DNA from: Sipunculus nudus
Lineage: Eukaryota; Annelida; Sipuncula; Golfingiida; Sipunculidae
Direction: 5' to 3'
NCBI GenBank assembly: GCA_026874595.1
Contig: CM049314.1
Span: 68,754,300-68,818,299, forward strand
DNA length: 64,000 bases
Made by a program: the position numbers and the translations under genes. The notes under the pieces are model-generated. The model saw nothing but the letters and a program-made list of their open reading frames with translations. It did no database searches and was not told the DNA's origin. Below are positions 3,755-30,845 of this stretch, piece after piece (positions within the stretch are counted from its first letter, which is position 1; every line of letters starts with the position of its first letter).

Positions 3755-3758
<4 letters not shown>

Positions 3759-11306: not shown

Positions 11307-11476
11307 GTATAAAATATTCTTTTTCCTAAAGGAATGTTCAATATTGATATACTGTCCTTTGGACGTTGTGCATCAATCCAAGTACTAACTCCATATTATT
11401 AAACATCCCTGGTAAATCAATGTTTAGCATTATATAGAATATATAATTTATTTTCATATGTGTCTGCTTATTTCAG

Positions 11477-11575: not shown

Positions 11576-11701
11576 GTAAGTGCACTTTTACGTATCCATC
11601 ATATACAGACACTCAAAGCTACAAGGGTAATATATTTTAATGTGTTTCCTCATTGTTGTAATATAATCTATTTTAACTTATGCTTATGCATTTATTACCA
11701 G

Positions 11702-11806
11702 GGTGGTTTCACGCCGCTCATGGTCGCAGTAGCCTTGGATAATATGGAGAGTGTACAAATATTACTTGACCACGGAGCAAACCCCGAAATTACAGCAAAA
11801 AATCAG
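11702..11806 (+). CDS. Copy A exon: ANK repeat 7
   Basis: 105 bases, ACCAG to CAG|GTATAT. GGFTPLMVAVALDNMESVQI then LLDHGANPEITAKNQ: a strong ankyrin match (G-TPL--A, LL-HGANP). Intact. Confidence 0.9.
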
Positions 11807-13078
11807 GTATATCATTTATCTTTATTCAAGATTATTCGTTGACAAATTTAATACCTGATTATATTTTATTCATGATTATTCCTTAAAAAGCGGGGTTTAA
11901 ACTTTTAATTGCACATTACACATATTAAATAAAACCATTGAACATCTGCTTAATAATTAGGAATAATTGAAATAAGATTAAGGCATTAACCTCAAGAATA
12001 TATATTAACATATTTGACTGATCAGACAGAAATACATGAGACGTAGTGTAAAAATATACAGTGTATCAGAGATGAAAGATAACTGAGACAAGTAGTAAAC
12101 ATTTAAGGTTTTCTTCCTCTAACTGTTTAATTGTGCGTCCTGTGGACTCAATATTTACAATATGCTAATAAAAAGGATATAGCTAAATAATGACTGCATT
12201 TAGAATTAGCTGCAGACATCTAAGTCTTCAAATCCAGAAATATTAGTTTTAACACACATTGCGACGCACGGAGTAGATAATATCCATTTCCATGAAGACG
12301 TTGTGCAATAGAAACGCCCAGGAAACCTAAATATGTCACATGCTGAGTAAACGCCAGCCTAACTTGCCAGTTGAATCTTACTCACTAAACAAACCTTTAA
12401 ATCATGACTTCAAACAAATAGGCACAACTGTGTATATTATGTATAAATAGAGACTATTGCTGCTAATAGTAATACTCAGTCGAACCACGTTCCAAAATTT
12501 GATGATATTTGCTCTCTACCCATGACAAATTTTGGAATTACATACTCCTTTTATACCGACGTTTATTAGGTACATCCAAAGCAAGATTTTATTCATACAT
12601 AAAACCGCCCAAACAGGTTTTCTGAAAGTTTGGTCTACATATGAGGTTGCAGTCAGAACTACAAACTAATCTAACAAAGTCCGTCATAAGCACCATTTGG
12701 TTCGGAAACGGCCAGTGTACAAGTGTTCACGGCGGCGGTCATAGGCATTGGTTGGTATGAAAAAACTGCAATGTTTCGGTCTATATTTTACAAATGACAG
12801 AAAAAAACACTAGCAAGCTGTGAATACATCTTCTGCAAACTCCAGACTATCACAAACATAAGCATAACGTTTAGAATTAATACTAATAATTATGGCGCGG
12901 AGGAATAAGACAGGGTCTATGTCATTTGGAAAAAAGGGCAGAGATATCGGTGCAGAGATCCCGTAGGATAAAGTATTTAATCTAACATTCTTGATTGCTT
13001 TAAGAACCAGGAATGGAGCCAGTTACCTCGCCATCGTATTTTTATATCTATTTTATAACTTTTCCGTTGTATTTGTAG

Positions 13079-13165
13079 CACACGGCACTGCTCCAAGCCG
13101 CAAAGTTAGGAAGGCAGGATATCATGAACCTCATGCTGCGGTACAGCAGACAGCCGGGCGGTAAG
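13079..13165 (+). CDS. Copy A exon: ANK repeat 8, last shared with copy B
   Basis: 87 bases, TTTGTAG to AAG|GTAGGA. HTALLQAAKLGRQDIMNLML then RYSRQPGGK. It aligns with copy B 24525 (ETALLGASRLGF). No counterparts of the later copy B exons follow. Confidence 0.8.
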
Positions 13166-13276
13166 GTAGGATCCTGTAACTTGTAATCCTGTCTTCTTGG
13201 TGTGCATGGTAGTGATCCTTGTTGAAATTATGAAAAATATTTATATATCAATAAAGGGTTTCCATTTAAATTACTT

Positions 13277-13281
<5 letters not shown>

Positions 13282-13318
<37 letters not shown>
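13282..13318. repeat. (AT)n microsatellite
   Basis: A run of about 37 bases of alternating A and T in the intron after the last copy A ANK exon. Confidence 0.95.
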
Positions 13319-13319
<1 letters not shown>

Positions 13320-13393
13320 CATGAAAAACATTTGTCATTCGTTTGACCCGCGACTTCTAATAAGGTGAAATTCTTTTTGACCTCCTATCACAG

Positions 13394-13442
13394 GTGTTAG
13401 CGGGGATAAACTCTGAAAGTGAAACTGGTGAATCGCACACCG
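13394..13442 (+). CDS. Possible small exon after copy A ANK repeats
   Basis: Good splice signals (TATCACAG and ACCG|GTAAGT) enclose 49 open bases encoding VLAGINSESETGESHT, phase 0 to 1. There is no homologue in copy B. A second candidate lies at 13524-13549. The phase would allow splicing into the first copy B exon at a CAG at 17,268-17,270. Weak support: splice signals only. Confidence 0.3.
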
Positions 13443-13644: not shown

Positions 13645-13955
13645 AAGTTAAGATAAACAGTGACGCCTTTTAGATAGACTAACTAGTTTATTAACACAAG
13701 AGCTTTCGAAGTACAAATACGTCTTCGTCAGGTGGTAATTAGGTGGGAACGTGCACAGAGATTATATATGATGGAACGACAATGTACAGTGTCCATAATG
13801 CCAGAAAAAGTGTATTTACATGCTGATTGGATATTTAGTAATATTATAACCATGTTGCCCTGGGTGGGCGGGGTACAGTGAGTACACATCGCTTCACTCG
13901 GGAATTCGGCGAAACCGAATGAAGGTGGACGTCATCCATATTATGACGTCACGTC
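13645..13955. repeat. Penelope-like element, left inverted terminal repeat
   Basis: It runs from AAGTTAAGATAAACAGTGAC to GACGTCATCCATATTATGAC then GTCACGTC, and is the reverse complement of 16839-17148 with scattered differences. It contains the complement of the hammerhead-like core at 13703-13731. Confidence 0.9.
13703..13731 (-). ncRNA. Hammerhead-like motif in left terminal repeat
   Basis: The minus strand reads CTGACGA, then a hairpin-forming stretch, then CTTCGAAAG. This fits the CUGANGA and GAAA boxes of hammerhead ribozymes, which are known in Penelope-like elements. Stem II would pair GACGT with ACTTC (one mismatch) after one unpaired A. The cleavage site and stem I are not clear to me. 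Confidence 0.35.
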
Positions 13956-14215
13956 GAAGGGTCGCCGGGTCCAAAGTGCGACCCTCCGTGGTACAGCCCG
14001 CCATTTCCAATGATAGTCCCTATCCGAGTCCCCTGTCGAATGCCAGAATCGGTCCGATTAATCGGTCGAGGGTGTGCCGCGAGCCGGATACCCAACCCTA
14101 CCCCCTCTATGAGGGAGGAGGAGGTACGATTTCCCAGTTCTCTGTCCGGCCCAGGAGTTGTGTCTCCCGCCCTGACCATCGGGCCCGTTAGATGTTCCAT
14201 GCTAGGCCGCCGGTA
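13956..14215. other. GC-rich segment inside the Penelope-like element
   Basis: About 260 bases, visibly richer in G+C than anything near it, between the left terminal repeat and an AAT-rich tract. It is open for long stretches in several frames, which is expected from its low stop-codon content. No protein family is recognised. Origin unknown. Confidence 0.5.
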
Positions 14216-14337
14216 TGCAAAGGAAAGAATAAACATAAACGTAAGTAACATAATAAAGCTAAATTAAGAAAAATAAAACAACTGATGGTTATGCAAAAAA
14301 TATTGTAACGGATATAAACAAAATAACAAACGTAGTA

Positions 14338-14340
14338 CTG

Positions 14341-14378
<38 letters not shown>

Positions 14379-14412
14379 TATAAAATTGATAATGATAATA
14401 ATAATAATAATA
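14338..14412. repeat. (AAT)n trinucleotide repeat
   Basis: ATAATA repeats with short interruptions, inside the Penelope-like element's AT-rich 3' part. Further ATAATA clusters continue to about 14,700. Confidence 0.9.
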
Positions 14413-15128
14413 CAAATAATAATTATAAAAAAATAATACTTATGAATAAAAATAATAATGATAATGGTATAACAAAAAGTGCACTATAAAGTTTCAACGA
14501 ATAAAGTAATTAAAGTAAAGTAATTGAGAGTGTAAAAAAATTTAAAAAAAAGGGTGATTATTTTGAATAAGATATGTTATACATATTAAACAGTCAAAAG
14601 ATTAGGAGATAATATGTTACCAAAAGTAATACCAATGGTAACGTAATCAGAAACACGGTCAGAAATAATAATAATAGTAATAATAATGATAGTAGGTAGA
14701 CTAATAAATAGAAATAATACTGGGGAAGTATTTGCAGGTTAGGGAGCTTAACATTGTAAAGATGAAAACAAATTGATAAAGCGGAAAAGAAAGAAGTGAC
14801 AGAAATAAAGTAAAAATAAAAAATGGGAAGAAAGAGATATAAAGATCACAAGTGGCTAGCAAGGATTATTTTTATATAGATAATAATGCTTATAGTGTGC
14901 CAGGAAACCTTGGTCTTGATTGAGGCCATTTTGTATACAGTTGAATTTATTAATGAATTTAGATTCCCAATTTTGTCTTAATCTTGTGTCCATGAGATCT
15001 CCCTATAGTATGTGTATCCTCATATGCGCCGCATTGTGTCCAGTTTGTGAGAAGTGTGTTCCCACTGGAGTGAGTCTTTGATTAGAGTTAATAGAGTGCC
15101 TATGGCCATTTATTCTCATGTTTAATCT

Positions 15129-15389
15129 TTAACTAGTTTCGCCGACGTATATGGCTTTCGGACATAAAATACATGTAATCAGGTAAACGGTTCCTTTGCT
15201 AGTGCATGTAAATTTGCCATGTATAGTGCATGTTTTCCCGTTAATTTGAACATTATCGCCTTGGACAATAAGTGGGCACGCAAGGCAGCGTAGTCTTTTA
15301 CATGGAAACGTACCATTTTTAATGTTTTTCGGGGTGATTTTGTATTTTACTAACTGGTTGCGAAGATTTCTTGGTTGTTTATAAGCCAA
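15129..15389 (-). pseudogene. Penelope-like element: GIY-YIG endonuclease region
   Basis: 87 codons: a linker with paired cysteines (PCKRLRCLACPLI), then HGKFTCTSKGTVYLITCILC and PKAIYVGETS. This arrangement, cysteine motif followed by a GIY-like 'TVYLI' and YIG-like 'YVGE', is characteristic of the Penelope C-terminal endonuclease. The remainder of the nuclease domain downstream (toward 14,950) is interrupted by stops. Confidence 0.75.
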
Positions 15390-15876
15390 TATGGGAGATT
15401 CTGGAAAGATTGTAGAAAGAACAGGGTCCGCGGTTAGAAGGGTTGTAACTCATGTGCAACTCTCTTTAAATGTTTAAGGTGCGGGTGGTAAGTTACAACC
15501 AGTGGTATTCGGTTCAGTTCTTTTTTTCGGGGTTTACTTCAATAAATTTTTACATGGAATTTTGGTGGCTTTGGTTATTTGATTATCTATGTTATGTCGT
15601 TTGTATCCCATGTTGATGAATGCCTTCATTAGTTTTAGTAGCTGTTGATCCCTTTCGGTTTTTTTCTGAGCATATCCTGTTGTTTCTTAGGGCTTGACTA
15701 TAGATGATAGATATGCCGACATGGGGTGGATGAGAGCTTGCAGGATGCATATAGTTGTGGCGATCAGTAGGTTTACGGTAAAGTGAAGTATGGATATTTC
15801 CGTCGGTTAGCTTAATAGTAGTGTCAAGAAAATTAATAGTATTGGTAGAATATTCAAGTTTTAGATTTATGTTAGG

Positions 15877-16875
15877 TGACTGGTAAACTCATTGTGAAAT
15901 TCTAAAAGTTTATTTTCGCCGTGCTGGGAAATTAGAACAATGTCGTCAATGTATGTTAGATAAATAAGTGGTTAAAGAGATTGATTTGCCAAGAAATCTT
16001 CCTTTAAGGTAATCATAAAGCAATTAGCATATTGTGGTGCCATACGTGTACCCATAGCTGTGCCCATTATTTGGAGATAAATATTTTCCTTGAATTAAAA
16101 AAAAATTGTGTGTGCGGATAAATTCAGCCAAATCAGTGGTTATATCCGGTGTTATGCTATTATGTTTATTATTATTATTATTGAGGAGTTTCATGCATGC
16201 CCTAAGGCCATCCGTGTGAGGTATATTAGTGTTTAAACTTTCGAAGTCCATAGATACCAATAAACTATCTTCTGGAATATTATCGATCATGTTTAGTTTG
16301 TTTAGAAAGTTTTTAGTATCGCCGACATAGCTATTTGAATTTTGAACGATAGGTTTTAGATTGGTTTCCACAAATCCAGAAATTAGTTCAGTAAGAGTTC
16401 CTATACCGGAAACAAATTTGTCTCCCTGGATTGTCTTTTTATGGATTTTAGGGAGCGTGTAAAATATGCCTGGTTTTAGGGTTTCGGGTATATACTTAAA
16501 TAGTTTCAGTTGAATGTGTTTTGGAAAGGTTACAATGAGTTGTTTTAGTTCTTTTGATAATTTTTCAGTTGGATCCCCGTCTAATTTTCTGAAATATTTT
16601 TCATTATCGAGTTGTCGGTAGGTCCTGAATAACAGTGGCGCCTCCTTTATCCTTTATAATCTGATGATTATTTCTTTATTATTTTTTAGTGTGGTAATGG
16701 CTTCTTGTTCAAAATTAGTAAGATTATTTGTTGATTGGGTTGTTTTATTTAAAATTTCTGAATTGATCTTATTTCTAAATGTGTTTATATAAATATCTAA
16801 TTTGGGGTTACGTCCTGTCGGGGTGTCCAGATTTTGTTGACGTGACGTCAAAATATGGATGACGTCCACCTTCAT
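15877..16875 (-). pseudogene. Penelope-like element: reverse transcriptase remnant
   Basis: Read on the minus strand. An N-terminal piece (FEQEAITTLKNNKEIIIRL) is followed after a frameshift by DKGGATVIQD, then FRKLDGDPTEKLSKELKQL, PLPKIHK-like TLPKIHKK, SGIGTLTELISGF, MDFESLNTNIPHTDGL and, after another shift, MGTRMAPQYANCFMI and the catalytic YIDD at 15942-15953. Several stops and shifts show it is not active. Confidence 0.8.
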
Positions 16876-17148
16876 TCAGTTTCGCGGAATTCCCGAGTGA
16901 AGCGATGGGTACTCACTGTACCCCGCTCACCCAGGGCATCATGGTTATAATATTACTAAATATCCAATCAGCATGTAAATACACTTTTTCTGGCATTATG
17001 GACACTATACATTGTCGTTCCTTCATATATAATCTCTGTACACGTTCCCAATTAATTACCATCTGACGAAGAAATCTTTGTACTTCGAAAGCTCGTGTGT
17101 TAATAAACTAGTTAGTCTATCTAAAAGGCGTCACTGTTTATCTTAACT
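16839..17148. repeat. Penelope-like element, right inverted terminal repeat
   Basis: Inverted copy of 13645-13955. The outer end, AGTCTATCTAAAAGGCGTCA then CTGTTTATCTTAACTT, is followed by CTACAGACTAACACGGCTAT, an apparent element tail reaching about 17,180. Confidence 0.9.
17063..17091 (+). ncRNA. Hammerhead-like motif in right terminal repeat
   Basis: CTGACGA, then AGAAATCTTTGTACTTC, then GAAAG. The putative stem II GAAAT/ACTTC has one mismatch. Together with 13703-13731 and the solo copy at 11036-11064, whose stem GAAGC/GCTTC is perfect, the boxes are invariant while the loop varies. Confidence 0.35.
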
Positions 17149-17260
17149 TTCTCTTCAACTACAGACTAACACGGCTATACCACTTATTACTATATTTTAC
17201 TTATACAAACTGCCTGTCTATAATGTCCCCGAACCCATTCTGTAAAGTTATAAATATTGC

Positions 17261-17552
17261 ATGTATACAGAATACAAGATAATTTTGGAAACAAATGGCG
17301 GAACCTGCCCTGCTACTGTCATCAAAGCATGCAAAAGGCATGTCCAGTTTATCAGCCTTACATATGGGGACCTTGGTAAATCCGTCGTTGAAGCTGGAGT
17401 TATAACAGAAAAAGAAAAACAGCAGCTGTACCGTAAGGATGGAATTGCGTTGTGTAATCATCTCTGTAAAAAGGGCAAACACATCTTTGACAAGTTTGTA
17501 AGATGTCTGGAGAAGGAACAGATGCAGGAAGCTGCGATATTGCAAAAAGCAG
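17261..17552 (+). CDS. Copy B exon 1: CARD I
   Basis: ATG at 17261 to the donor GCAG|GTTGAT, 292 bases ending in phase 1. SLTYGDLGKSVVEAGVITEK, then EKQQLYRKDGIALCNHLCKK and HIFDKFVRCLEKE give the full six-helix CARD pattern (GVIT--E, --F--F---L). An AG at 17,269-17,270 could instead be an acceptor, which would make this an internal exon. It starts 80 bases after a Penelope-like element. Confidence 0.8.
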
Positions 17553-20500
17553 GTTGATATTTGTTTAACACAAAAATCAGGAGGCATATTAACCATTTTT
17601 GTATAAATCCTATTTTCGCATATAGAATAACAGTTGTTTAGATTTTGGTCTAATGTGAAGAAACGAGTTTGATTATGTAAAATTTCATATTATGTACCTA
17701 CCTAACTCTAACCATTGCGTGAAGGATGGGTCGTAGGACCGTATGATATCTTTGGTGTACAGCACACAACAATTCATGTCTGTTTGTGCTGTTATGCCTT
17801 CTGACTGAAAGTCAACTGAGCAAAAGCAATAGTACTTTGTTTGTCGTCCGTCCGTCCATCTGACCTTTTAGCCGTCAGACCTTTCGTTATCAAAGCACAA
17901 ATCGTAAACCCTGGACCTAGAAATACTGATTGACCATCAAGGAGGCCGACACAAATCTCCTCGAAAACCTGAAATTAGGTCACTTCGACCTCATCCTCAG
18001 AGTTATGTGGCTAGTTTATGCACCACAGAATAATTGAATGAATTGCCATGATTTTTGCTTAGCGTATTTAAAAGGGAAAATTTTATCAACTGCTTAAGAC
18101 TGGGGTCACCCTCTATATTTATTCTATTTTTAACACATTTTACCTCTGTTTTTGACACTGCCAAATTACCCCGATGGTTTTAGTTTATAAACAGTAATTT
18201 CATCAAGTGTCCTAATACCTGATGTGTTAGTAATGTATCCATCGCCATACCACTACCCAAATGGGTACACCTTGTTTTCAGTCTGATTGCTTCCCCTAGT
18301 CCCCGTCTTAAGGATATTACTTTTGAAGCACTGTATATTTCCCCTGAAATTTGAAACGCAAGTTTTTTTCCGCCAAATTTTTGAGGAATTTGAAAAACTG
18401 GTGACCTTCATTTTGATATTCAAGGTCAAATCAATTTATGTAAATCCCAATGCTTTTGGATATATTTTTCCATAAATTTCGTATATTTTTTTAGCCGGGT
18501 GCTTGTTGAAGTTCGAAATATGGTAACTTTAACCATGAAATTAAAGGTCAAATCAGTAAAAATTTTGTAAACCCTTAATGTTCTTAAAAGGCTGTCCAAA
18601 CTCAAATGCCACACCTTTCATCTTTCAGCCTCCCTACCAGCTAATCGGGATGAAACCATAATGATTCACGAGGTCAAGGGTCAAAAACCCAGCGTTCACT
18701 TCTATAGAAAGATCGTTTAATGTGTATATGCCATGCTTTTGATCTCAAACCTTCAATCCCTCACGCATGGTTACGTTTTAATAAGAGAAAAATAAATATT
18801 AACTTTGACGTCAAAAGATCAAGGTCATTAAACTCTCCTTTTCTGCAAGCTCCTGGCTACATTTGAAGCCAATCTTTAATCGAAAACCTTACATCCTGCC
18901 CATTTGCCTAAAATAATTACAAAGAACTTCTTTTTATACTCCAAGGGCTTTTTCTAGGCAATGGTTTATATAATAACCAGGAGACTAGTCTTGTAACATG
19001 TTCATACTGAATATATTACAGTTCCTTTTTTTAATAATGAGGCAGATGGTCTCATTTATCATGTACGCAGCATACCGTCCATTGCCTCTCGACAAAATGA
19101 ATATCCGATATCTAAAAACCTTGCTAATTAAATTTCTATCCAATGTTTTTTTTCAGTAGGGAGAGGCGTGAGGCGCTTGAGACTGCATACTGACAAAATA
19201 TTGGGCTTCGAAGAATTATTAAACAGTTCACTTGAATTCACTCAAACTTTAGTTACAAATCTTGAGAAAGCTCAAGTTGATGTTGATAATAAAATAAAAG
19301 CTCGCCTGGTAAGAACAAAAAATTGAATTATCTTTTCTCAGTATCAATCTTGTGACATGAATTCGTAATAAATACATAATTCTCTTAGGTTAACATTTAT
19401 ATTAAGCAGCCTACGGGTTATTAATGATAATTTAACACATTTAACATTTATCTAAATAAAATTCAATTTAAAACTTGAAAATATTTTGCAACTGTTAACT
19501 TCAGACGAACAGATCGGCACTCATTGACATAATGCCATTGGCCTAGCCATAGCTGTTACCGTTTCACTGCCTGAAACTTAGGTGAAAATGGCACACATAT
19601 GAAACGATATCCATGTAATTTAGAATTCACTGCCTCGTATATATGATAAACAAAGAAAAACATTAGTTCTCAATTTTCTTTTTTTGTAGCCATATCAGAA
19701 AAGGGTGAAATATTCGATGTTTGTTAACAGTTTATTGGAAACAGACGAGGAATCATTCGAGGAGTTTATTCAGTGTCTTCATGATAGCCCAGAACTCGGC
19801 CACAGAGTTATCGCCAAACACCTGAGGCAGTTAGGGAATGGAAGTATAACATATCTTACATATATATATTTGTTTTCATGGGCCATTTTGGCCGCAATCT
19901 TGGAATTTAACCAATATAAAGTAACAATATACTTAGTGTGGCCTGTAGTGATTGCGAACATTTTTGTCGAATTCTTCTAAAGCTGCTGCCTAGCGGCAGG
20001 ACCAGATATATTTTACCTCACACTTTGACATGTTTTCTTGTCATTTAAAGGCGATACGACCAAACCAATAACAGCAGAGGTAAGACATTTCTTACATTCT
20101 CAATATATTTCATTTCTCGGAGAGCATAAATTATTGAAGTGGAAGGAATCAAACATATTTCATTTTTAAATTCAGTATACGTTTATTCAATAACAGTTCA
20201 TTTGCCGTCATCAATATACGCATTTAACTATCAAAACATACTTTTTTTAAGTATCAAATGATACACTTGGGTAATTTGACAGCCTTCGTTTTATATCCGA
20301 TATGCTGCAACGTGAACATCAATGCATTACAAGTCTAAAAAGGTATATGAAACAGGCATATACGAGGGGCAAGGGAAAGACTATCAGTATACGCAGCACA
20401 ACGTACATATTTTGTAAATAAAAGGGGCTGAAAAAACTGCATTTTCGTGCTCAAGTTTTAGAGAAATTTGCTCTCACCCGTAAGGAATAAAATAAAAACA

Positions 20501-23500
20501 GTATCAAGCATGACCACGCTTGTGCCGAACAAACTCTTCATTTTTTTTTTTCATGAAAGTGTCCTACTCATATCGTCGCTGGTGGAATGATTACCGTGCA
20601 TATTCTCTGCTAGGGTCCGTTTAATATTTTACTCTTTATTTTAGATAACATTGAATATTCTTCAAGGCTGTGAAAGAGCATGCAGCGGTGAACAGGAAAA
20701 GCTTCTTGACTTAGAAGAACAGGGTGTATAATTATATTTGCAATATACTGGAAAATCAACCATGCGAACCTGCTGACCGTTCCAACACTAATCAGAGTCC
20801 GGAAAGTCAAACTGAAAACGTCGACCCTCGGGCATACCAGATAATCTGTCTTCTGGAAAATGAGTTCCGCCATTTAATGCCAAAAATGGCACGGGGTTCA
20901 AAGAAGGGGGTATCTTTGCAATGCATGTGCAACAGTTTGAATGACTGCGAGATCTTGCGAATTGGAGCGAAGACAAAATCCCTTTATAATGTTTTGTGTC
21001 AGTGTGTTCTCGTGTGCTGGCCTGATCTGCTAAACCTGTCCTATGTTGAAATAGAAGGAATTTTTGACATCAAAAGCCCCATATTCGGTAACTATTATGT
21101 TTGAGTAAAAGCATTCCGCATTTTTTGTAGATAATTATATTATGTTACCTGCAGAATAAAAAATAGAACAACTTAGTCACACAATCCATTCAAGTTAAAA
21201 CATTGATATATTTACATTATGATAACATTTATTAATATCTTAAATGTCGCATATTTAATAAAAAAAATGTCCGTTTTAATTACAGGGCAACCGGTAATAA
21301 CAAGATTTCAAGTCAATGTGTCACAAAGGGTACATAACTTAGTTTTTCACATAGCTGCAATACTATACGATTTATACATTTAATTCATAAGATATGATCA
21401 TTTTGTTTAATTATTTTCTTACACACAAATATAGGAATTTTATATGTACTCACACGGGGACGTATACATGATGTTTCAAGGAGAATAAAGGGTATTTAAT
21501 GGTTACTGTAATGCTCATTTATTGTAATGGTTATTTTATGAAAATGTAAAAGGAAAAAATCTCGAATGTATTCGGGTACTGTATTTAATTTGCTCCGCTT
21601 ATAAGTGTTCTTGTTCTACATATATATTATACTATAACAGTCAGAGTCGATCATGCATATTTTGTAGCTTCTTTCTATCTTTAAACATGTATCTGGATAT
21701 CAATATCTGCGGTCTTAAAATTTTCTCAAGTTATTTCATGGTACACATTTTGAATTGCTTAGAACAGGAGACCGCTCAGAATAAGTGAAAAGTATATACC
21801 CGTGCCTCTCTCAAAATTTTCATAAAAAATTTAAAGTCATGATTTATGAAAATATCTTTATGGTAGCGTCATAACATGCCCGGAAAAATTCAATTGGCAT
21901 ATATGGCAATGGCAGAAAAAGTGTGAACTGAGTACAGGTCCATAAAATAAAATTAATAAATTGTTTAACATAACTGAAGAGAAACAAACTACAGGCTTCG
22001 GGGGGGGGGGGGGGGGTTAACGATGTACACAGTGTTACTTTTCCGTTCCGAACCGTTAATCCATATTAACATTTTATTAACTGCATATTTAATGCAAGAG
22101 TAGCTTGACGTATATCTTCGATGTTCATTTTATCGTCTAGTTTGCCGGGTTTTTTTTCATGATTTCTTTGCATCAGAATCATTTATATTTTCAGTACATT
22201 AAGACAGCGCTCATGTTTGCAGCTGGAAATGGCCATGACTGGATACTCTCCAGGCTACTGGAACAGGGAGCAAATCTCACAAGTACAGATAACGTGAGCT
22301 TATCTACTGAGTAGTATATAATGGTAAAATTAATACCCCAGGCAAACACATTTGTAAAGGGAGTCCTAAAATAAATTGTCTTCTCACAACACAAGTTTGG
22401 ACCTGGTTCGGTAAACGGAAATGTGTAACATTTGTTAAAACCCTTTTTCATTAATTAATAAGTTGGACTTTTTAAATTATAGTTTTTGAGAATTTCTTTA
22501 TATGCGAAATGTACATCTTTTAGGCAAGGGTATGCCCAATATTCATTCTTTTACTCTATTCCGATATTCGATTTATTCTCACATAGTTTGATTTCTAAAG
22601 GTATTATTCTTGATGCTATATGTTCTCATACCTACAGGACGGAAAGACAGCACTGATGTGTGCAGCTGAAAACGGTAACAAAGCCATAAGTGACTCCCAG
22701 ATTGAATTACCACGCCTTTTCTCTGTGTGTGCTAGAGAGAGAAAGGCACTAACCGCTTCGTGGTGTCAATGGCACTCATAATACAAGGAGAATCCAAGGC
22801 AAAGAGTTATAATATGTATTATATAAAAAGTATTTTGATTTCTAGAAGCAAAGGAAAAATAAAGTTGTTGAAATTTTAGAACAAAACAGCACTTGACTAT
22901 GCAGCCCAGGGAAACCATGTCGATACATTGCGGGAACTCGTGAATCATGTCATAGGGCACCAAATGGACCTTAAAGTAAGTATGACGATTCTGGCAACAA
23001 TTCAGGCGCGGATGTATCATATGAACATACATGATTAAATAAAGCACGCTTCAAAGCTATCGATAGACGTTTATACTAGCCGTATGTAGACATGTCGTTT
23101 TGCCACAAGTGTGAGTGTACTTTGTTTCCATTCGCAGATATTTGACAGTGCTCTTACTGAAGCAAGAACAGCTGGATTCCTAGAAATTGTGAGGCTGTTT
23201 CTGAACATTCAAGAATATTTTCCCTTAATCCGGCATAAGGTACATATGATTTTTAAAATAAAAAAGATCATCGACGATAAGTTTCCATTCCTCTGAATAT
23301 AATGTGGGCCTAGAACATCTAAGATATACATATATTATCGAGAAAACAACATATTCAATGAAAGTCAATAAGAAAAAATTACATTAAAAGAAGAAATTCT
23401 GTTATACCATTCTTCTAAATAAAGAGTTCATCTGAAAATATATTTAATTTTATAGCACATATTCTTTTCATATTGCTTTAGCTGTGCAGTTTCCTGGATG

Positions 23501-26500
23501 ATGCGGTAGCTGCTGGTCATAATGAACTGGTTGCGTTGTACCTTGAGCTTGGAGTTCTTCCTAATTTTAGCAGCTATTCGGTATATACTTTGTTTATTTT
23601 AATTTGCTTGCTATTTGTTCAATATTTACCTATACAGGGCGATTTAGGGCTATTATTTACATGTAATATTAAGCCATTATTTAGTTAATGTTTTGATGTC
23701 CGGTGCAACTTTTGTTTGCCTATTTTTTTTTTATTTGCAGGGAAGGTGTATACCACTTGTATATGCATCAAGTATGGGCGATATGAAATCCGTGAAATTA
23801 CTACTTGAGCATGGAGCCAATCCAAATTTTACGTCTGCATATGGGGTAAAACGTTATCCGATATTCTTAATCGGAAGCTTTTTAAAATCTGATCTTTTCA
23901 GGTTTATTATACTAGAAATTACATGTATATATATATACACATACTTAGATATGTGATTTAGTGCTTATAATTCCAGGTTGATTTCAACCAGGTTTATTTT
24001 TATTAACATTTGTATTCATAATATTAGTAAGATTTTTATCCAAATATGACGAATATTGAAGAATCAAGAACTATTTGTATTCTCTATTCAAATCAAGAAC
24101 TATTTGTTTTATCTTTCAATTTACCATTGTGCAACCTAGAATTTCATTGAAGTCTCAGATTACCCTGAATTAAATGTTAATATGTGAAAAAAATCAACGT
24201 CTAATGCTTTTCATGGATGACAACCTGCATTCATCAAACCTAGGAACCATCAGAATACACCAACAGCTCCTCTGCCTATGATAAAAATAATTTGAAATTA
24301 AAGATCATACCAGAAAGTTTGTAAATAAGAGTTAATGCAAAGTTTACTGAATGTTTCTTTTGTAAACAGATTTCACAGTCCTGAAGTATCTAGAAATTAC
24401 TACTAAATGAATATTACTCCCCTAAAATTACATTTTTACCATATTTATGTATCATTTGGGTACGAGGTAATGAAAAATATTAATCAATGAATATGCTTTT
24501 CATTACAATTTATACATGTTCCAGGAAACAGCACTACTTGGAGCATCAAGATTAGGCTTCTCTGATATCGTAGACCTGCTTTTGCAGTATAAAGCCTGTA
24601 CCGACACAAGATTCAGCCAGGTAAGATATTTTATTTTAGCGAACGTCAGTTGTAGGATTTAAGCATTTGAAAAGTTAAATCTAGAAAATTAAAATATGAA
24701 ATGGACAAAAGTTCCCTTGAATTATCCTTGGAAACCAAATTTAGGTTACGTAACGTAAATTTTGTTAACTAGCACGATTCCTAGCCCCCGCTACGTTAGA
24801 TATATGTGTTCTAACCTGCGAAACAAGGAAGGATCCTTTGGGGATATGTACGAAATAATGTCATTGTTCAAGCATATATCCCTGTTATCAGTTTAATATC
24901 CCTAGTAGTTTTAAGAGAAATGCTATTACCAGCTCTCATAGAAGTCAGACACAGTTTTGAAATTTAACATCCGTCGGTCAAGACAAATTCATGAACGAGG
25001 TTTGCTTTCTACCTAAAGATTATATAAATGTATATTATAATATACTGAGGCACTGAGCTCGGACGTCCCCTTATTCTTGATTGTTAGCCCCGTGTGTAGG
25101 GACCTGTGGATTACTGAAAAGCGGCCAGGACCTTGATATAATAAGGGAAGAACAAAACCAATCAAGATCCAATAAGGACACGACGGTGAGCGGGGACATG
25201 GCCGATTCTCTATGCTGACAGAGTTTGAAGCCTCAACGGTCCCTGACCTTTAATTGTGATAGGCCCACCAGGGAAACACTTTCAAGGGACCCACCTAAAA
25301 CGGTGAACTAGTGTAGGATATATGATCTTTTTAATGCAGGCTAATTAGTTCTTAACATTTCCAACTCTATCACATTAGAAAATTTAATTAAAATAATTGC
25401 CCACCAGGAGAAAAACCTTGTGCAATAGCTTGTATGCATACTGATCTGAAATTAATATATTAGATGCATAACATCACCCACCACCTACAAACCCCTTACT
25501 CAAAAACTCAAAAATTCCGGCTATACACTTTTGTTCACACTCATAGAGTTATAAAACGGTTTTGCTTTAATTATAATGATAATAATTTGCTCAACCCACA
25601 AACGTGTTTCAATATACAAGTCAACTAATGGCCAACTTATAACATGTACTCAGCTTGGATAGACACTTCTAAACTTTTTTGAATTAATTGATGGATTTTA
25701 AATTTCCTACTAAAAATTTAACTTGTATTTGTTCACAATGTGTCTCAACAATAATGCAACACACTGAACATCATGAACCATATTGGTCATACGCGTCTGT
25801 TATTCAGGATAACAATGTGCAAGTTATAAATAGTTGATCTTCAAGAAAGGCAAGGTATAACACATTATAAAGACATACTATTCTTTTATTTTTTTGAAGA
25901 TGAATGAGCCAGTCTTCGGACCAATCTCTGGAGCCACTTACGAAGGTCACTTAGATACGGTGAAGCTGTTACTAACACATGGACCAAGTCTCGAAGATTT
26001 AGAATGGGTATGACCACATTTAAATTGTATTGTTTGCCAGAGCAAGTTTGAATAATAACCGATATATATATTGTTCTTTTACATGCAGGTAACTGCATAT
26101 AGTTTAAAATATTGTGTGCTTAGTCTCCACGATCTATGGTGCCCACATATAAGAAACCTCTTCTCGTTATGAGAATACAGTATGAATCTCAACTTATAAC
26201 CTTTTGTTTGTTTCATTCTGGCCAGACTGAGTCCCGTATTTTATCATCGTAACAATGGAGTAGCGAGCACCAATGCCTTCCCCAGAAAACCGTATGTTAA
26301 AGGAAAGGTGGTCCTTGACGTAAGCGATTGTTCCAAACTCTCATAATTAGATCTTGATCGTTGAACTGACAAACAGAGTAGTTTATTAAAATGCCCCAGT
26401 TATCCCAGTAGTATCTAGACTATGGTAACTTATCCTCTAGCTGGCGTACGCCATTGTTTCATTCATCCGTTGGCCAGCTACGCCAGTGTGGGAGTAATAG

Positions 26501-27075
26501 TCTTCCGAAAGGCAACTTGTTTCCTAATTTCCAAAGTTTTTTAGCCTGTCCCAAATTTACACCTTCCACTGCATTGTTGTTTTATGTGGATTGGAACTGG
26601 TTTATCGTATATATCATTATCCTCTGATCATGGGACTCGTCGTCTTGTTTGGCCTCGTTTCGGGCAAGTACGTTCCGATCATCCCTGCCTTAATTGACCA
26701 GATTGCATTGGCGTGCTTTTGGGGTTAAAAGACTATGGGCCGTTCTAATTGTATCTTTTGTATAATAATATCAACCAAAAAAGGACATAACTTTGGATAA
26801 CAACTTGGGCTCTGATGAAACAGGAGTGTGTCACTGAGCGTCTGTTATCTTGTGTGTTTTTTTGCCCTTTAAATTTGCCTTTATTTCTAGCAGATTCCTG
26901 AACTATGCATAATTAAATTTACGCCAGGCACTTCAACAACTTCATTTTCTCTTCATTTTTTACTCAATTTAAGTATCTAGAAATTTCAGGACACAACAAT
27001 GCATTTTCACACATTTGCTTTATTTCCTTTACCGGTCACACTGTCATACTGCATTAATGTATACAATTTGCTTCT

Positions 27076-27141
<66 letters not shown>

Positions 27142-30100
27142 TACTTTGAAGAGAATGCTGCCCCTGCTAACAGGATCTGTCAAAAGGCTGCTCACTCCTG
27201 AAATAATAATGCATCCACTAGAAAGATATTTAATCCCTGTAGTATTTCGACGAAAATAACGAAAATGCTGTGGAAAGACGTCAGTAGTTCAGACTTTATA
27301 CCTGATTGATTATTGTAGTTGTATCACGGTTAAATGTGTTCCGTTAAATGACAAAAACATTTAAACTATCATTTGCCTTATTTTTGATCAGGCACTGTAC
27401 GAGTCGTCGGGAACAGGAAATGCAGCCTTTGTGGATACCCTGCTAGCGCATGGGGTTAGCCCTGATGGAGATGGTCAAGTAAGTCATTCAATGGGTTACC
27501 TTCGAACGAGATTGTTATTTACGGTAACTGCCGAAGATTGTTATTTACGGTAACTGCCGCTTTTGATTCTCAGCGGTATGCTGTTTCAAACATTGAACAG
27601 TGTGAGCTTAAAATATCTTAATGTTATTTTTATTTTAGCTGAATTCATATCAAAGCTCAATGCAATAAAACCTCACGTATTCCTTTTGGCAATCCAATTA
27701 AATGAATAAATAAATACACAAAATATATACACAATGCCCATGTTAATGCTTTACTCAAGTATAGTGTGTTTCACGATGGCGCTAAGATGTTACATTTTTG
27801 TTACTCCATTAACAGAAGTTAATAAATCTTATGGTATTTTCTCCGGATAGAATGACAAGATGAAAGATCAAAATAAGTAAAGAGAGTGACACTGGTATCC
27901 GCTTTCGATTATTGCAGGTTTAAGGTTTTATATTTGCCTTAAAAGTACACCATAGGCACAGAAACAGATATGTCAACCTTTTCTATTTACCTTTCCAGAG
28001 AGGTCCTAGATCAATCTGATTTTTTTTTCTGATTCTGCTTTGACCTTATTTATAGAGACGCTGCCCGCTGTTTGCAGCATATGCTAGACATCAAACGAAG
28101 ATTGTGATCAAACTGCTTGAAAGAGGGGCAAACCCGAATACGATCGACGAGGTAATCGTAGATAAAGTTCCCTCAAAAACGTCAGAGGGACATGGTCAAC
28201 ATAGTTATTAGCATGAAGTAGACCACAATAAATTGTAATCACAGTTATAATAATTTTTCATAAAAAAGAAAGCAACATACTTGCTTAAACTGAGTCAGAA
28301 AGTAGGACAGCGATGAATATGTTTGTGCCATCAACCCTTTGTTCGGGTGTAAAGGGTGACTAATTATCTATATTTTTTATTTAACTCCCACTTTTTACAA
28401 AATAAGTTTATTTTTTCAGACATACAAAAGACAATCCAAATAAAATTCTATGTCAACAATGTTTCATTATATGCACACCATAGATCATTTTTTTCCACAG
28501 CAAAGTTATTCTTAAATATCATTTTCTAATTGATTAAACGTCCCAAACATTCCTTATATATTATCAATCGGCTTGTTCCGCACTTCCATCGTATTTGGCT
28601 TGTGGATTGCGTTTACGGTTGGCCGAAGGCCAGTACGAAGACAATACTTAACGAACCGGTCCCTTATATTTTATATAAGCGGCCACGCATAATATGAACA
28701 CAACCCACAATGAATCGACATTTTATTTTCAAAATGAACCAAATGAAACACTCCAACATCGTTCTTAAGCCGGCACCTACACACATTCAGGATGCTAATT
28801 TGTTTGCAGTTTCAATCCTGGGCATTTCGTCACAGATCATAGTGAAATCACACTCCACCTCGTTTTTCTTTCGCATTTGTGGTTAGTTCAGGCATGCTTT
28901 GACTGTAATGGTTAATTACATTTATAGCTCCCGATGTTAAGCAAATTTTTTTTTTATATATGTTATTATTGTGTAATTTTCAGTAAGTAATTCTCCCATG
29001 TACATGAAGGTTTATAATATGTTACCGAGTTGTTTTATTGTTCAATTAGACTAAAGATAGACTCGGTCAGATTTCACAAGTCAGAGTACAAATCAAGGAC
29101 CCTCGAATAAAAGTCCGCGTCCCTAATAAATTTGATTTGAATCCGACTTAGACTAGAGCAGGATTCGAGTCTTTCATTATCGGTCTATAATGTCTTACTC
29201 AGATATAATTGTCTATAATTTCAGAAAGGGGAAACACTGTTATTCCGAGCATTACGCAATAACAACGTAGGACTAATAATTTTACTGATGAAGTATGGGG
29301 CTAGCTGTGAAGTAGCCAACAAGGTAAATGTTTACACATCAGATGTTTATCTTTGTGAGTAATGGTCGTTTTCTGAAGTTATTTAGTGATTTCCCTGTTT
29401 TCTAACATATTTATAAAATCACAAAGCGATGTCGCCATACACACCATCTGATCATAAGATTAATATTATATCCTTCCTACTTACAAATTCAATAAATAGT
29501 ATATATTGCAAAGTGTATATTGAAGAAAGTATATATTGAATCATATCACATTTCTTATAATATGTGTATATTCTGATACAGTTCGTGTATTTTTTTATTC
29601 ACTCTGCACATCGACTTACTATCTCCAAATCAACTGTCTAATAAGTCGTTTTGTGTAAGTCCCATCGCCCACCTGTGACTTTTTACTATTACTTGTTGCG
29701 AGTACGAGAAAATTACCAAAGGAGAAGAAAAAATTGAAAGAAAACAAAAACAAGTTTTAAATAACACGATTTGTGAGGTTGCGCCCTACAGCTGCCAGGT
29801 GACCTGTGCGGTATTTTTATGTTTTGGAACATGAATATCTTCGAGTGCGAGTTTAATTTCAGTAGTATACAGGAGTAATTGGTGTTTAACGACATTTTGC
29901 AAATACTAACATATATTTAAACATAATACACTGTAATTCATGTATATTTAACATACCTGGTAGGGAAATGGGTCCATTTCAATTTTAGGACGGAGACTTT
30001 CCGCTACATGTTGCTGTCAGATCCAACCATATATATCACGAAACGTTCTGTTCTTTGTTGACCGGGAGGAAAATTATTCAGGTTGGTCTGAAGATTTATC

Positions 30101-30845
30101 TCAAGCTAAAGCTATATGTATCGATACTCCGTAAATCAGTTTAAAAAAAACCCACATTATTTTTTCATAGGAATGGGAGGTCATTTCGTAGGTTTCAGGG
30201 CAAACATGTTTAGTTCATAAAAGATTTATTTTGTTGTAGAAAGGTATGAATTTTCTCTCTATGACGCCTCATGGATCAATCGGTTCTGGTGCACTACTGG
30301 ACGTAACCACAAAGGAAGGCCGGACTCCCCTTGAATTGGCGATGACGTTTAATTGTGAATATAAATTGTATACCTTGATACAACACGGGGCATTAAAAAG
30401 GCACATAATTGAACTTCCCAAAGGACCACCAATAAGTGTTTTGCCCACAGTTGAGTGGCTTCACACGTCTTTGCTAGACCTCTGTAATTTAAACTTACAA
30501 AAATTTGTTAAAATCTTACACGAAGCCGGATGTTGCACACACGGGGGCCGGACTGATGCGGCATCAAGGGATGAGGATTCTTCTCGAAGATATTATAATC
30601 CCTACTTTTATGGGGAGGGTGCATACTCATGGCTGGATTTTCAACGATTTAAAGTACGAAGTCTACAGCTACTCTGTCGTCAGACCATTCGTGAAACACT
30701 TCAGAAAGTTTCAGGCGGACGAAGTATTTTCTACAGAGTGAGAAAACTACAGATCCACAGATGCCTACAAGATCAGATTCTCTTCAGGCATGTAATTCCT
30801 AAAAAAGTGTGGTCTGACGTCACTATCGACTATCAGCCAAAATAA
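17261..30845 (+). CDS. Copy B: CARD-CARD-domain X-ANK-SOCS box protein gene
   Basis: Nineteen exons, about 930 residues if the truncated ANK exon is skipped and the domain X shift is an error. Order: CARD I (about residues 30-97), CARD II (about 110-199), domain X (210-371), eleven exon-encoded ANK repeats plus one at the start of the last exon (372-770), a divergent ankyrin-like stretch, and a SOCS box (about 872-915). Exon phases chain correctly throughout. Known: SOCS boxes bind Elongin B/C and cullins to make ubiquitin ligases, ANK repeats select substrates (as in the ASB family), CARDs bind CARDs. Inference: a ligase receptor targeting or recruited by a CARD signalling complex, cytosolic (no signal peptide or membrane segment seen). 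Oddities: domain X exon is 1 base out of frame near 20,722, and one ANK exon is cut short. The start at 17261 is the first ATG in frame, but a spliced upstream exon is possible. Confidence 0.8.
17800..18185. repeat. Single diverged unit of the ~340-bp repeat family
   Basis: GTCCGTCCGTCCATC, GCACAAATCGTAAACCCTGG, CCTGAAATTAGGTCAC and ACTGGGGTCACCCTCTATAT match the array at 5,963-9,750 in order. It lies in copy B intron 1. The stretch from 18,200 to 18,950 is rich in AAGGTCAAA motifs and may be another dispersed repeat; nothing coding is seen there. Confidence 0.7.
19157..19308 (+). CDS. Copy B exon 2: CARD II, N-terminal part
   Basis: 152 bases, TTTTCAG to CTG|GTAAGA, phase 1 to 0. VGRGVRRLRLHTDKILGFEE then LLNSSLEFTQTLVTNLEKAQ, a mostly helical, amphipathic sequence. 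Assigned to CARD II by position; the sequence match itself is weak. Confidence 0.75.
19690..19843 (+). CDS. Copy B exon 3: CARD II, C-terminal part
   Basis: 154 bases, TTTGTAG to GGAA|GTATAA. SMFVNSLLETDEESFEEFIQ, CLHDSPELGHRVIAKHLRQL match the copy A and C exons at 815 and 46567. The donor used by those copies (TTAG|GTAA) reads TTAG|GGAA here. A GT nine bases later keeps the phase and is taken as the donor. Confidence 0.8.
20051..20079 (+). CDS. Copy B exon 4: micro-exon linker
   Basis: 29 bases, TTTAAAG to GAG|GTAAGA, encoding DTTKPITAE with a split first codon. Same size and position as the micro-exons of copies A and C. Confidence 0.7.
20645..21087 (+). CDS. Copy B exon 5: domain X, one extra base
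   Basis: 443 bases, TTTTAG to TTCG|GTAACT; the phase requires 442 (or 445). The first frame runs ITLNILQGCERACSGEQEKL then LDLEEQ and meets TAA right after GGT GTA. The other frame carries YNYICNILENQ through RHLMPKMARGSKKGVSLQCM, CNSLNDCEILRIGAKTKSLY and QCVLVCWPDLLNLS. A single extra G in the GGG at about 20,722 would explain it. Real mutation or assembly error cannot be told apart here. Confidence 0.7.
21286..21329 (+). CDS. Copy B exon 6: short exon after domain X
   Basis: 44 bases, TTACAG to AGG|GTACAT, QPVITRFQVNVSQR. It keeps the 'P-ITRF' core seen in copy A (EPIITRF) and copy C (PLVTSF), and resets the phase to 0. Confidence 0.7.
22000..22016. repeat. Poly-G run
   Basis: Seventeen consecutive G in an AT-rich intron. 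The copy B intron 21,330-22,194 shows no counterpart of the first ANK exon of copies A and C. Confidence 0.9.
22195..22293 (+). CDS. Copy B exon 7: ANK repeat
   Basis: 99 bases, TTTTCAG to AAC|GTGAGC, phase 0-0. YIKTALMFAAGNGHDWILSR ends LLEQGANLTSTDN. Clear ankyrin consensus. Confidence 0.85.
22638..22680 (+). pseudogene. Copy B truncated ANK exon
   Basis: After CCTACAG the frame DGKTALMCAAENGNKA is a clear ankyrin first half, but the second helix and the expected donor are missing. The following bases are intron-like and carry no ankyrin tail. The neighbouring exons are phase 0 on both sides, so skipping it keeps the frame. The right limit is where homology fades. Confidence 0.6.
22880..22975 (+). 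CDS. Copy B exon: ANK repeat
   Basis: 96 bases, ATTTTAG to AAA|GTAAGT. NKTALDYAAQGNHVDTLREL then VNHVIGHQMDLK. Counterpart of copy A 10858, but closer to consensus. Confidence 0.85.
23138..23239 (+). CDS. Copy B exon: ANK repeat (divergent)
   Basis: 102 bases, TTCGCAG to AAG|GTACAT. IFDSALTEARTAGFLEIVRL then FLNIQEYFPLIRHK. Counterpart of copy A 11202 and copy C 62599. Confidence 0.8.
23482..23580 (+). CDS. Copy B exon: ANK repeat
   Basis: 99 bases, CTTTAG to TCG|GTATAT. LCSFLDDAVAAGHNELVALY then LELGVLPNFSSYS. Phase 0-0. Confidence 0.85.
23741..23845 (+). CDS. Copy B exon: ANK repeat
   Basis: 105 bases, TTTGCAG to GGG|GTAAAA. RCIPLVYASSMGDMKSVKLL then LEHGANPNFTSAYG. Strong ankyrin match, counterpart of copy A 11702. 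Confidence 0.9.
24525..24620 (+). CDS. Copy B exon: ANK repeat
   Basis: 96 bases, TTCCAG to CAG|GTAAGA. ETALLGASRLGFSDIVDLLL then QYKACTDTRFSQ. Counterpart of the last copy A repeat. The following intron (24,621-25,899) holds no recognisable gene; 25,060-25,320 is less AT-rich and may be an old insertion. Confidence 0.85.
25900..26007 (+). CDS. Copy B exon: ANK repeat, first not found in copy A
   Basis: 108 bases, TTTGAAG to TGG|GTATGA. NEPVFGPISGATYEGHLDTV then KLLLTHGPSLEDLEW: a good ankyrin repeat. The next intron (26,008-27,391) contains only an AT microsatellite and no other recognised feature. Confidence 0.8.
27079..27138. repeat. (AT)n microsatellite
   Basis: About 60 bases of alternating A/T in a copy B intron. 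The IYIYIY open frames on both strands here are artefacts of it. Confidence 0.95.
27392..27478 (+). CDS. Copy B exon: short ANK repeat
   Basis: 87 bases, TGATCAG to CAA|GTAAGT. ALYESSGTGNAAFVDTLLAH then GVSPDGDGQ. 29 codons, phase 0-0. Confidence 0.8.
28056..28151 (+). CDS. Copy B exon: ANK repeat
   Basis: 96 bases, TTTATAG to GAG|GTAATC. RRCPLFAAYARHQTKIVIKL then LERGANPNTIDE, a canonical ankyrin tail. The next intron (28,152-29,224) has nothing recognised. Confidence 0.85.
29225..29323 (+). CDS. Copy B exon: ANK repeat
   Basis: 99 bases, TTTCAG to AAG|GTAAAT. KGETLLFRALRNNNVGLIIL then LMKYGASCEVANK. Phase 0-0. Confidence 0.85.
29989..30081 (+). CDS. Copy B exon: ANK repeat
   Basis: 93 bases, TTTTAG to CAG|GTTGGT. 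DGDFPLHVAVRSNHIYHETF then CSLLTGRKIIQ. 'D-PLH-AV' is the ankyrin start. Confidence 0.85.
30240..30845 (+). CDS. Copy B last exon: final ANK repeat and SOCS box
   Basis: 606 bases from TTGTTGTAG to the stop TAA at 30843-30845. It opens with an ankyrin repeat (TTKEGRTPLELAMTFNCEYK, LIQHGAL), then a weaker ankyrin-like stretch (LLDLCNLNLQKFVKILHEAG), then from 30,660 a SOCS box: SLQLLCRQTI fits the Elongin BC box (S/T/P)LxxxCxxx(I/L/V) exactly, followed by RETLQ and, after RSIFYRV, RKLQIHRCLQDQIL where a cullin box should have LPxP. Both prolines are replaced. This ANK plus C-terminal SOCS layout is that of ASB proteins, but the N-terminal CARDs are not part of that family. Confidence 0.85.
   Translation, partial: KGMNFLSMTPHGSIGSGALLDVTTKEGRTPLELAMTFNCEYKLYTLIQHGALKRHIIELPKGPPISVLPTVEWLHTSLLDLCNLNLQKFVKILHEAGCCTHGGRTDAASRDEDSSRRYYNPYFYGEGAYSWLDFQRFKVRSLQLLCRQTIRETLQKVSGGRSIFYRVRKLQIHRCLQDQILFRHVIPKKVWSDVTIDYQPK

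Follow-up and report, generated by a model that had tools for sequence, protein, structure and literature searches.

Results

The window, by which we mean the whole stretch of 64,000 nucleotides analysed here (C9:68754300-68818299 of the 1.43-Gb assembly of Sipunculus nudus), carries on its forward strand one copy, A3, of a gene. Three tandem relatives (A1, A2 and A4) repeat its series of exons, as does a further relative, C, in inverted orientation. C lies about 380 kb from the window copy, with an identity of 37-53% by domain. The order CARD-CARD-X-ANK-SOCS is found in all five copies. The first-pass annotation had placed CARDs and a SOCS box in one gene, and this is supported by the shared exon order, which extends to C at a dS above 1.1. 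Judged from the genomic sequence, the layout is real and is supported beyond the window copy.

In the window copy, exon 1 (17261-17552; 97 aa, entered in phase 0 and left in phase 1) corresponds to the first CARD-like region, CARD1, and starts with ATG, as it does in A1 and A2 (CTG in A4). CARD2 is split over exon 2 (19157-19308; phases 1/0, the same as in A1, A2 and C) and exon 3 (19690-19843; phases 0/1). A short linker, exon 4 (20051-20079; phases 1/0), has equivalents in A1 and A2. It is followed by exon 5 (20645-21087), assigned to domain X by homology, and by a second linker, exon 6 (21286-21329; phases 1/0), which reads QPVITRFQVNVSQR. The ankyrin repeats are encoded one per phase-0 exon: a1 (22195-22293), a2 (22880-22975), a3 (23138-23239), a4 (23482-23580), a5 (23741-23845), a6 (24525-24620), a7 (25900-26007), a8 (27392-27478), a9 (28056-28151), a10 (29225-29323) and a11 (29989-30081), with the remnant of a further exon, a2b (22638-22674), between a1 and a2. 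The last exon (30240-30845) holds another repeat, a spacer, the SOCS box and the stop codon. Eleven ankyrin exons and one repeat in the last exon agree with the roughly twelve repeats counted initially, and across the family the number is about 12-14. The Ank_2 profile matches with an E value of 5e-42 in the window copy and 7.5e-67 in A2.

The relatives differ in how intact they are. A2 can be read through 19 exons into 957 amino acids with GT-AG borders and no internal stop. In C, all 18 modelled exons before the last one are open and 16 of 17 junctions are in phase; exon 2 uses a donor at position 10889 of the reverse-complemented stretch, which restores the phase. One pattern search in C found no equivalent of exon 4, which leaves a phase gap between exon 3 and X, and a5b, one of its 13 ankyrin exons, lacks a donor. 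In A4 the CARD/X part is no longer open and the ankyrin-SOCS part is, and in A1 ankyrin exon a7 has lost its donor. A SOCS match at C9:68343592 was considered as the tail of C and rejected, C having its own SOCS exon at C9:68368676-68368104.

The SOCS box is firmly identified through the relatives. Its profile has a Pfam cut-off of 23.5 bits, which is exceeded in four of five copies (A1 27.0, A2 29.0, A4 34.1 and C 24.2 bits). For the window copy itself, the proposed SOCS box and its exact BC box stand as far as the motif and a profile match (E = 4.7e-4) are concerned, but its 20.8 bits fall short of the cut-off. The motif SLQLLCRQTI, which we take to be the Elongin BC box from its pattern, occurs in four copies, and A4 has SLQQLCRQTI, so that a BC box is kept in 5/5. 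The Cul5 box is expected to follow the rule LP(hydrophobic)P (PMC4812663), and the motif LPxP was found in none of the five copies. The corresponding region reads LQIP in two copies and LQVP in a third, LQIH in the window copy and LQQIP in C. Between A2 and C, 46 of 65 residues are identical in the SOCS-box region, compared with 48% across the whole last exon.

Support for the CARDs is weaker than for the SOCS box. Both of the CARD-like regions proposed earlier are present, but the window copy scores below the Pfam CARD (PF00619) cut-off of 23.9 bits (13.7 bits for exon 1 alone, 15.1 for the whole protein), and its CARD2 alone has no CARD match. Exon 1 of A2 reaches 17.6 bits and the whole A2 protein 21.9 bits in two stretches; exon 1 of A1 has no CARD match, and the full CARD2 of C has no match in Pfam. 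Among the 11 CARD segments tested separately, one lies above the cut-off, four lie below it and six are without a CARD match. The one above is the first CARD of B2, a neighbouring module of the B kind described below, which aligns along CARD2 and scores 32.3 bits (E = 1e-7). When the CARD2 family profile was compared with PDB, the best 13 of 22 matches were CARDs of NOD1 or APAF1 (E 0.05-0.19), whereas the CARD1 profile gave three matches, none of them a CARD. The CARD1 and CARD2 profiles match each other with a probability of 88.8. A phmmer search of PDB with exon 1, the spliced CARD2 and the X exon returned nothing relevant. Through their relatives, both regions are likely to be CARDs.

The unknown domain noted in the first pass, X, is present and has no Pfam match in the window copy; the X sequences of B2, C and A1 also gave nothing near a Pfam cut-off, and among the Pfam families no match to a TRADD-N domain appeared. 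The X profile has no match in PDB, and none of 56 pattern matches in viral contigs is related. The idea that X might be a further CARD was rejected on hhalign probabilities of 0.1 and 0.3. Genome-wide, X gives 10 significant matches, all within the gene cluster. In each of six copy pairs its dN is the lowest or joint lowest among the domains. With its restriction to this cluster of the genome and a dN below that of the neighbouring domains, X is an obvious candidate for structural study.

Estimates of dN/dS (NG86, given without a significance test) range from 0.37 to 0.55 for A1-A2, from 0.39 to 0.64 for A1-A3 and from 0.29 to 0.88 for A2-A3. Against C they are 0.17-0.40 at a dS of 1.15-2.29, with CARD2 of C taken without the last residues of its exon both here and in the identity comparison. 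We also considered the ankyrin repeats as a specially fast part of the protein. The A2-A3 values of 0.63 and 0.88 would fit, but the A1-A2 values of 0.51 and 0.46 do not, and the last four repeats reach only 0.29-0.31 against C. The idea was rejected.

One claim of the first-pass annotation did not hold. The exons of the window copy had been said to chain without phase conflict, but the clean chain (909 aa) is not the native one and is obtained only if the X exon begins at 20715 and the ankyrin exon at 22638 is skipped. The X exon of A1, A2 and C starts at the site equivalent to 20645 and forms one open frame. In the window copy, a 2-nt deletion relative to A2 shifts this frame into a stop at 20729-20731, and the exon is open again at 20715-21087. 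At -3.6, the acceptor at 20715 scores lower than any of 50 homologous acceptors, for which the leave-one-out minimum is -0.29. The second lesion is in a2b, where the 3' half and the donor, both present in A2 and A4, are gone. The window copy is therefore probably a damaged member of the family, from which the full protein would no longer be made, or a shortened one would be.

The window also contains related modules, each with two CARD-like domains, X and about eight ankyrin repeats. B1 (815-13442, plus strand) has CARD-like exons at 815-965, 1436-1519 and 1778-1912, an X match at 4007-4234, ankyrin exons from 5789 to 13165 and a linker exon that runs to 13442; neither a SOCS box nor a phase-consistent X exon was found in it. 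A second related module, B3 (46567-64000, plus strand), has its last exons past the window end and an in-frame stop in its X (58062-58358). Its partner, A4, starts 1.4 kb past the window end.

Discussion

Our results describe a small gene family that combines two CARD-like domains, X, ankyrin repeats and a SOCS box, and we found no description of this combination. Our literature searches for the SOCS box and/or CARDs with ankyrin repeats showed no protein with both a CARD and a SOCS box. The family grows and decays via tandem duplication. Since the CARD/X part is broken in A4, a7 has lost its donor in A1 and the window copy carries two lesions, parts of the layout may be dispensable.

One of the nearest known layouts is that of the ASB family, the ankyrin repeat and SOCS box proteins, which are CRL5 receptors. 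Like the family described here, they end in a SOCS box whose BC box is exact, placed behind the ankyrin repeats. Unlike them, our family has two N-terminal CARD-like domains and X, has LPxP in none of five copies, and encodes one ankyrin repeat per phase-0 exon. ANKDD1A is an ankyrin and death domain protein; it, like NF-kappaB precursors and ankyrins, differs from our family in having a death domain instead of a CARD, and none of these is known to have a SOCS box. NF-kappaB precursors and ankyrins resemble our family in that a single protein combines a death fold with ankyrin repeats (PMC8781854). Expanded families of death-fold/TRADD-N/ankyrin proteins are described in bivalves, sponges and others (PMC8195603). 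These are similar in carrying one to three death-fold domains followed by another domain and then, most often in sponges, by ankyrin repeats, and in their lineage-specific expansion; they differ in that the death folds here are CARD-like and X has no Pfam match. The term "socs" has 0 occurrences in the main text of that paper.

We consider it reasonably probable (about 0.6) that this local family of CARD-CARD-X-(about 12-14 ankyrin repeats)-SOCS box proteins consists of Elongin BC-cullin ligase receptors tied to CARD signalling. In this reading Elongin B/C, bound by the C-terminal SOCS box, would link the protein to a cullin, and the ankyrin solenoid would bind the ubiquitination substrate. 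The pair of CARDs would put the ligase on, or make it respond to, CARD signalling complexes of innate immunity or cell death. The first-pass proposal was that the receptor might dock on CARD filaments and perhaps switch off innate signalling. In ASB7 the degron groove is formed by the ankyrin repeats (PMC11263391), so substrate binding does not have to fall to the CARDs. The ubiquitin-ligase receptor suggested in the first pass stays plausible with a BC box in all five copies, but the Cul5 motif LPxP was found in none.

This missing motif could also be read differently. The proteins might primarily be CARD sensors, with a ligand recognised by the ankyrin repeats and the signal passed on by the CARDs; the SOCS box would then serve only stability or self-turnover via Elongin B/C. 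Invertebrate proteins with a death fold, a further domain and ankyrin repeats have been read as sensors (PMC8195603). However, the SOCS region is better conserved than the remaining last exon, the BC box is kept throughout, and SOCS1, whose Cul5 box is incomplete, is still reported with polyubiquitinated substrates (PMC4812663). We regard this sensor reading as rather doubtful. Much less probable still is that the CARD exons and the ankyrin-SOCS exons are separate neighbouring genes. A4, with its open ankyrin-SOCS part behind a broken CARD/X part, would fit such a split, but five copies including C share order and strand, and in A1, A2 and C the junctions are in phase across X and linker exon 6.

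Two further alternatives concern the limits of the gene and the state of the window copy. A B module and the A gene behind it could form one longer gene, at least as an isoform, by splicing in which the linker exon of B is joined to exon 2 or exon 1 of A; such a gene would comprise four CARDs, two copies of X, some twenty ankyrin repeats and a single SOCS box. A B module precedes the A gene in all four plus-strand pairs. The two are 254-287 bp apart in A1, A2 and A4 and 3.8 kb apart in the window, where there is an insert, and C has a B-like ankyrin exon 2.7 kb in front of it. The last exon of B2 leaves phase 1, which is what A exon 2 takes, B1 and B2 have the donor GTAAGT, and CAG/AA stands at the head of exon 1 in 4/4 copies. 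Yet the exon-1 acceptor scores at background (in the three copies scored, 23-63% of 5000 random AGs do no worse), the donor's GT is replaced by GC in the A1 pair and by AT in the A4 pair, and exon 1 has its own ATG in three of four copies. On that acceptor score we rejected the idea that exon 1 is internal and joined to the B module at CAG/AA, and we keep it only as a rival; overall we think a joint gene unlikely. Somewhat better, though still the minority view, are the chances that the window copy is a working gene whose splicing passes over a2b, with X either entered at the cryptic acceptor 20715 (909 aa) or omitted via a donor at 20723 (811 aa). Both forms are in frame, and the CARD and X codons are otherwise open with an A2-A3 dN/dS of 0.29-0.43. 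But the acceptor at 20715 is weaker than all 50 homologous ones, and the frame is broken in an exon that is open in A1, A2 and C.

A more far-reaching version of the ligase-receptor reading is tentative. The family could represent a new class of receptors that ties CARD assembly directly to ubiquitination, in which CARD signalosomes recruit or activate the ligase via the CARDs and X. Splicing could add the B module as an alternative N-terminal part and so raise the number of CARDs to as many as four.

To our knowledge, death-fold signalling and cullin-ligase receptors usually reside in separate proteins. This would be one more layout among the many death-fold proteins described from sessile marine animals (PMC8195603). 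If the conserved fusion is true, it becomes testable whether an animal ends or redirects CARD signalling by ubiquitination in cis.

Integrity of the window gene and its relatives

The first-pass annotation placed two CARD-like regions, an unnamed domain (X), about twelve ankyrin repeats and a SOCS box in one gene at 17261–30845 (A3), with exon phases that chain cleanly, and interpreted its product as a ubiquitin-ligase receptor docking onto CARD assemblies. All of these exons are indeed present, and their inner borders are AG and GT. The clean chain did not survive closer inspection. Two phase-consistent chains can be constructed, one of 909 aa, in which X begins at 20715, and one of 811 aa, in which X is omitted; an ankyrin remnant at 22638 is left out of both. 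Relative to the tandem relative A2, the X exon of A3 carries a 2-nt deletion that leads to a stop at 20729, and ankyrin exon a2b has lost its 3′ half and its donor. We scored acceptors with a weight matrix trained on 50 homology-placed acceptor sites from the genes A2, A3 and A4. The acceptor at 20715 scores −3.6, below every leave-one-out score (minimum −0.29), and hence the proposed chain depends on a cryptic site. The native acceptor at 20645, itself part of the training set, scores 14.7. An assembly error may lie behind the disruption. Considered alone, A3 would be a suggestive yet sub-threshold case.

That the parts from CARD to SOCS form one gene is supported by the relatives, which were located by exon-by-exon searches of the window flanks in the 1.43-Gb assembly (153 contigs; the window is C9:68754300–68818299, and window positions are C9 positions minus 68754299). 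The same exon series as in A3 is found in A1 (window coordinates −125388 to −96960), A2 (−53002 to −22950) and A4 (65389 to 84589). A2 encodes a single open protein of 957 aa in 19 exons. A1 is open, domain by domain, in CARD1, CARD2, X and the last exon, and its ankyrin exon a7 has lost its donor. In A4, exon 1 starts with CTG, exon 2 is broken and X is truncated; the ankyrin-SOCS exons of this copy are still open.

Among the best candidates scored genome-wide, X has 10 significant matches, all within C9 68.386–68.822 Mb: four fall in A genes and four in related B modules, and the remaining two are on the minus strand. From one of the latter we opened up a more distant relative, C (C9:68390214 to 68368104, minus strand), whose parts follow the order seen in the A genes: CARD1 (two exons), CARD2, X, a linker, 13 ankyrin exons and the SOCS exon. 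Upstream of the last exon, eighteen exons are open and have splice sites, and 16 of their 17 junctions keep phase. The one exception is the step from exon 3 to X, the site of a short exon 4 in A1 and A2, for which a search with one pattern found no equivalent in C. One more ankyrin exon, outside the eighteen, has no donor. The other minus-strand X, upstream of C (C9:68409970–68410314, 45% identical), is perhaps its B-like partner; C is also preceded, at 2.7 kb, by a B-like ankyrin exon. A separate ankyrin-SOCS gene (C9:68343592, minus strand; ankyrin exons and SOCS_box at 49.1 bits) lies downstream of C, some 24 kb away, and is conceivably a source of the SOCS tail.

Identity of the domains

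The ankyrin repeats are clear (Ank_2, E 5e-42 in the 909-aa form of A3). The SOCS box claimed for the last exon does match the profile and exceeds the cut-off of 23.5 bits in four of five copies (A1 27.0, A2 29.0, A4 34.1, C 24.2 bits), the exception being A3 itself (E 0.001 in the 909-aa form; 4.7e-4 and 20.8 bits for the last exon alone). The Elongin BC box is kept in all five copies; the Cul5 motif LPxP is found in none of them (A1, A2, A3, A4, C).

The two CARD-like regions are less firmly supported. CARD reaches 21.9 bits in the whole A2 protein, spread over two stretches, and 15.1 bits (E 0.023) in the 909-aa form of A3, against a cut-off of 23.9 bits. Eleven separate segments were tested (CARD1 of A1, A2, A3, A4 and C; CARD2 of A1, A2, A3 and C; two of module B2). 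Only the first of B2 passes (E 1e-7, 32.3 bits). Another four (CARD1 of A2, A3 and A4; CARD2 of A2) match with scores under the cut-off, and six give no Pfam CARD match. The B2 segment aligns along CARD2, with 27% identity to CARD2 of A3. Against the PDB, a CARD2 profile that contains this sole passing segment has NOD1 and APAF1 CARDs as the best 13 of 22 matches (E 0.05–0.19). A CARD1 profile of three copies finds no CARD there; aligned to one another, the CARD1 and CARD2 profiles match at a probability of 88.8. The A3 X exon alone has no Pfam match, and profile searches with several copies of X return no name. Comparison with the CARD profiles ruled out X as a further CARD.

CARD-bearing open reading frames also occur elsewhere in this genome. 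After scoring 150 of 650 first-look candidates from a genome-wide search, we count at least about 50 dispersed pairs with closely similar scores, mostly a 230-aa frame plus a 275-aa frame roughly 3 kb away on the other strand (e.g., C10:79087507 (+) and C10:79090932 (−); C5:181159 (+) and C5:184581 (−)). In four pairs a third CARD frame of 422 aa lies about 4 kb from the first. Their appearance is that of a mobile element or integrated virus that bears CARD genes and has multiplied recently.

Modules upstream of the A genes

A related B module with X and ankyrin repeats precedes each of the four A genes. CARD-like exons are seen in B1, B2 and B3, the three modules whose upstream part was examined, and no SOCS exon was found in the B modules. 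B1 (815–13442) and B3 (from 46567; its X has an in-frame stop) lie in the window. Between B1 and A3, at 13650–17200 (−), sits what we take from its motifs to be a Penelope-like insertion: it reads as such from a reverse-transcriptase-like frame (16024–16653) and a GIY-YIG-like frame (15129–15449), and similar stretches in opposite orientation lie near both ends; no Pfam family matched at E 0.01. A LINE-type retrotransposon (48315–53641, minus strand; endonuclease PF03372, reverse transcriptase PF00078) sits among the CARD-like exons of B3.

A long isoform in which a B module is spliced to its A gene is a possible but rather unlikely alternative. The B/A junctions align in all three pairs compared, and the last exon of B2 exits in phase 1, which is compatible with A exon 2. 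However, the acceptor ahead of A exon 1 does not stand out in score from random AG sites, and of the B modules only B1 and B2 retain the GTAAGT donor of the linker intact.

Apparent selection on both ends of the gene

We estimated dN/dS (NG86) domain by domain for pairs among A1, A2, A3 and C. Between A1 and A2 the ratio is 0.43 in CARD1, 0.53 in CARD2, 0.37 in X, 0.55 in the last exon, and 0.51 (repeats 1–6) and 0.46 (8–11) in the ankyrin region. The corresponding values for A2 and A3 are 0.43, 0.43, 0.29, 0.52, 0.63 and 0.88, and those for A1 and A3 span 0.39–0.64. Against C, with ankyrin repeats 1–6 left out, dN/dS is 0.17–0.40 at dS 1.15–2.29 (dS was not computable for CARD1 of A1 and C). 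The dN of X is the lowest or joint lowest among domains in all six pairs, and conservation is higher still in the SOCS region of the last exon (46/65 identical between A2 and C). CARD1 of A4 has ratios of 0.81 vs A2 and 1.11 vs A3, as expected for decay. Taken at face value, these sequence comparisons suggest that constraint has acted on the gene at both its CARD and its SOCS end since the A/C split, and this is the main evidence that the two ends would act as one working unit.

A candidate receptor

No protein with both a CARD and a SOCS box was found in the open-licence literature searched. The nearest published relatives are the death-fold/TRADD-N expansions of bivalves and sponges, some of which carry ankyrin repeats (PMC8195603); SOCS is absent from the main text of that paper. 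The architecture may be present but unannotated in other proteomes.

The layout, its conservation and an apparent constraint can be read from the sequences themselves. By comparison with established families, the SOCS box would bind Elongin B/C and a cullin, whose identity is uncertain because LPxP is missing, and the CARDs would bind CARD partners. The ankyrin solenoid contacts the substrate in ASB7, and we propose the same role for the repeats of the A/C family. One could also argue that the protein is a CARD sensor whose SOCS box serves its own turnover, which we consider unlikely. With a probability of roughly 0.6, we favor a CARD-CARD-X-ANK-SOCS protein that would act as an Elongin/cullin receptor tied to CARD partners.
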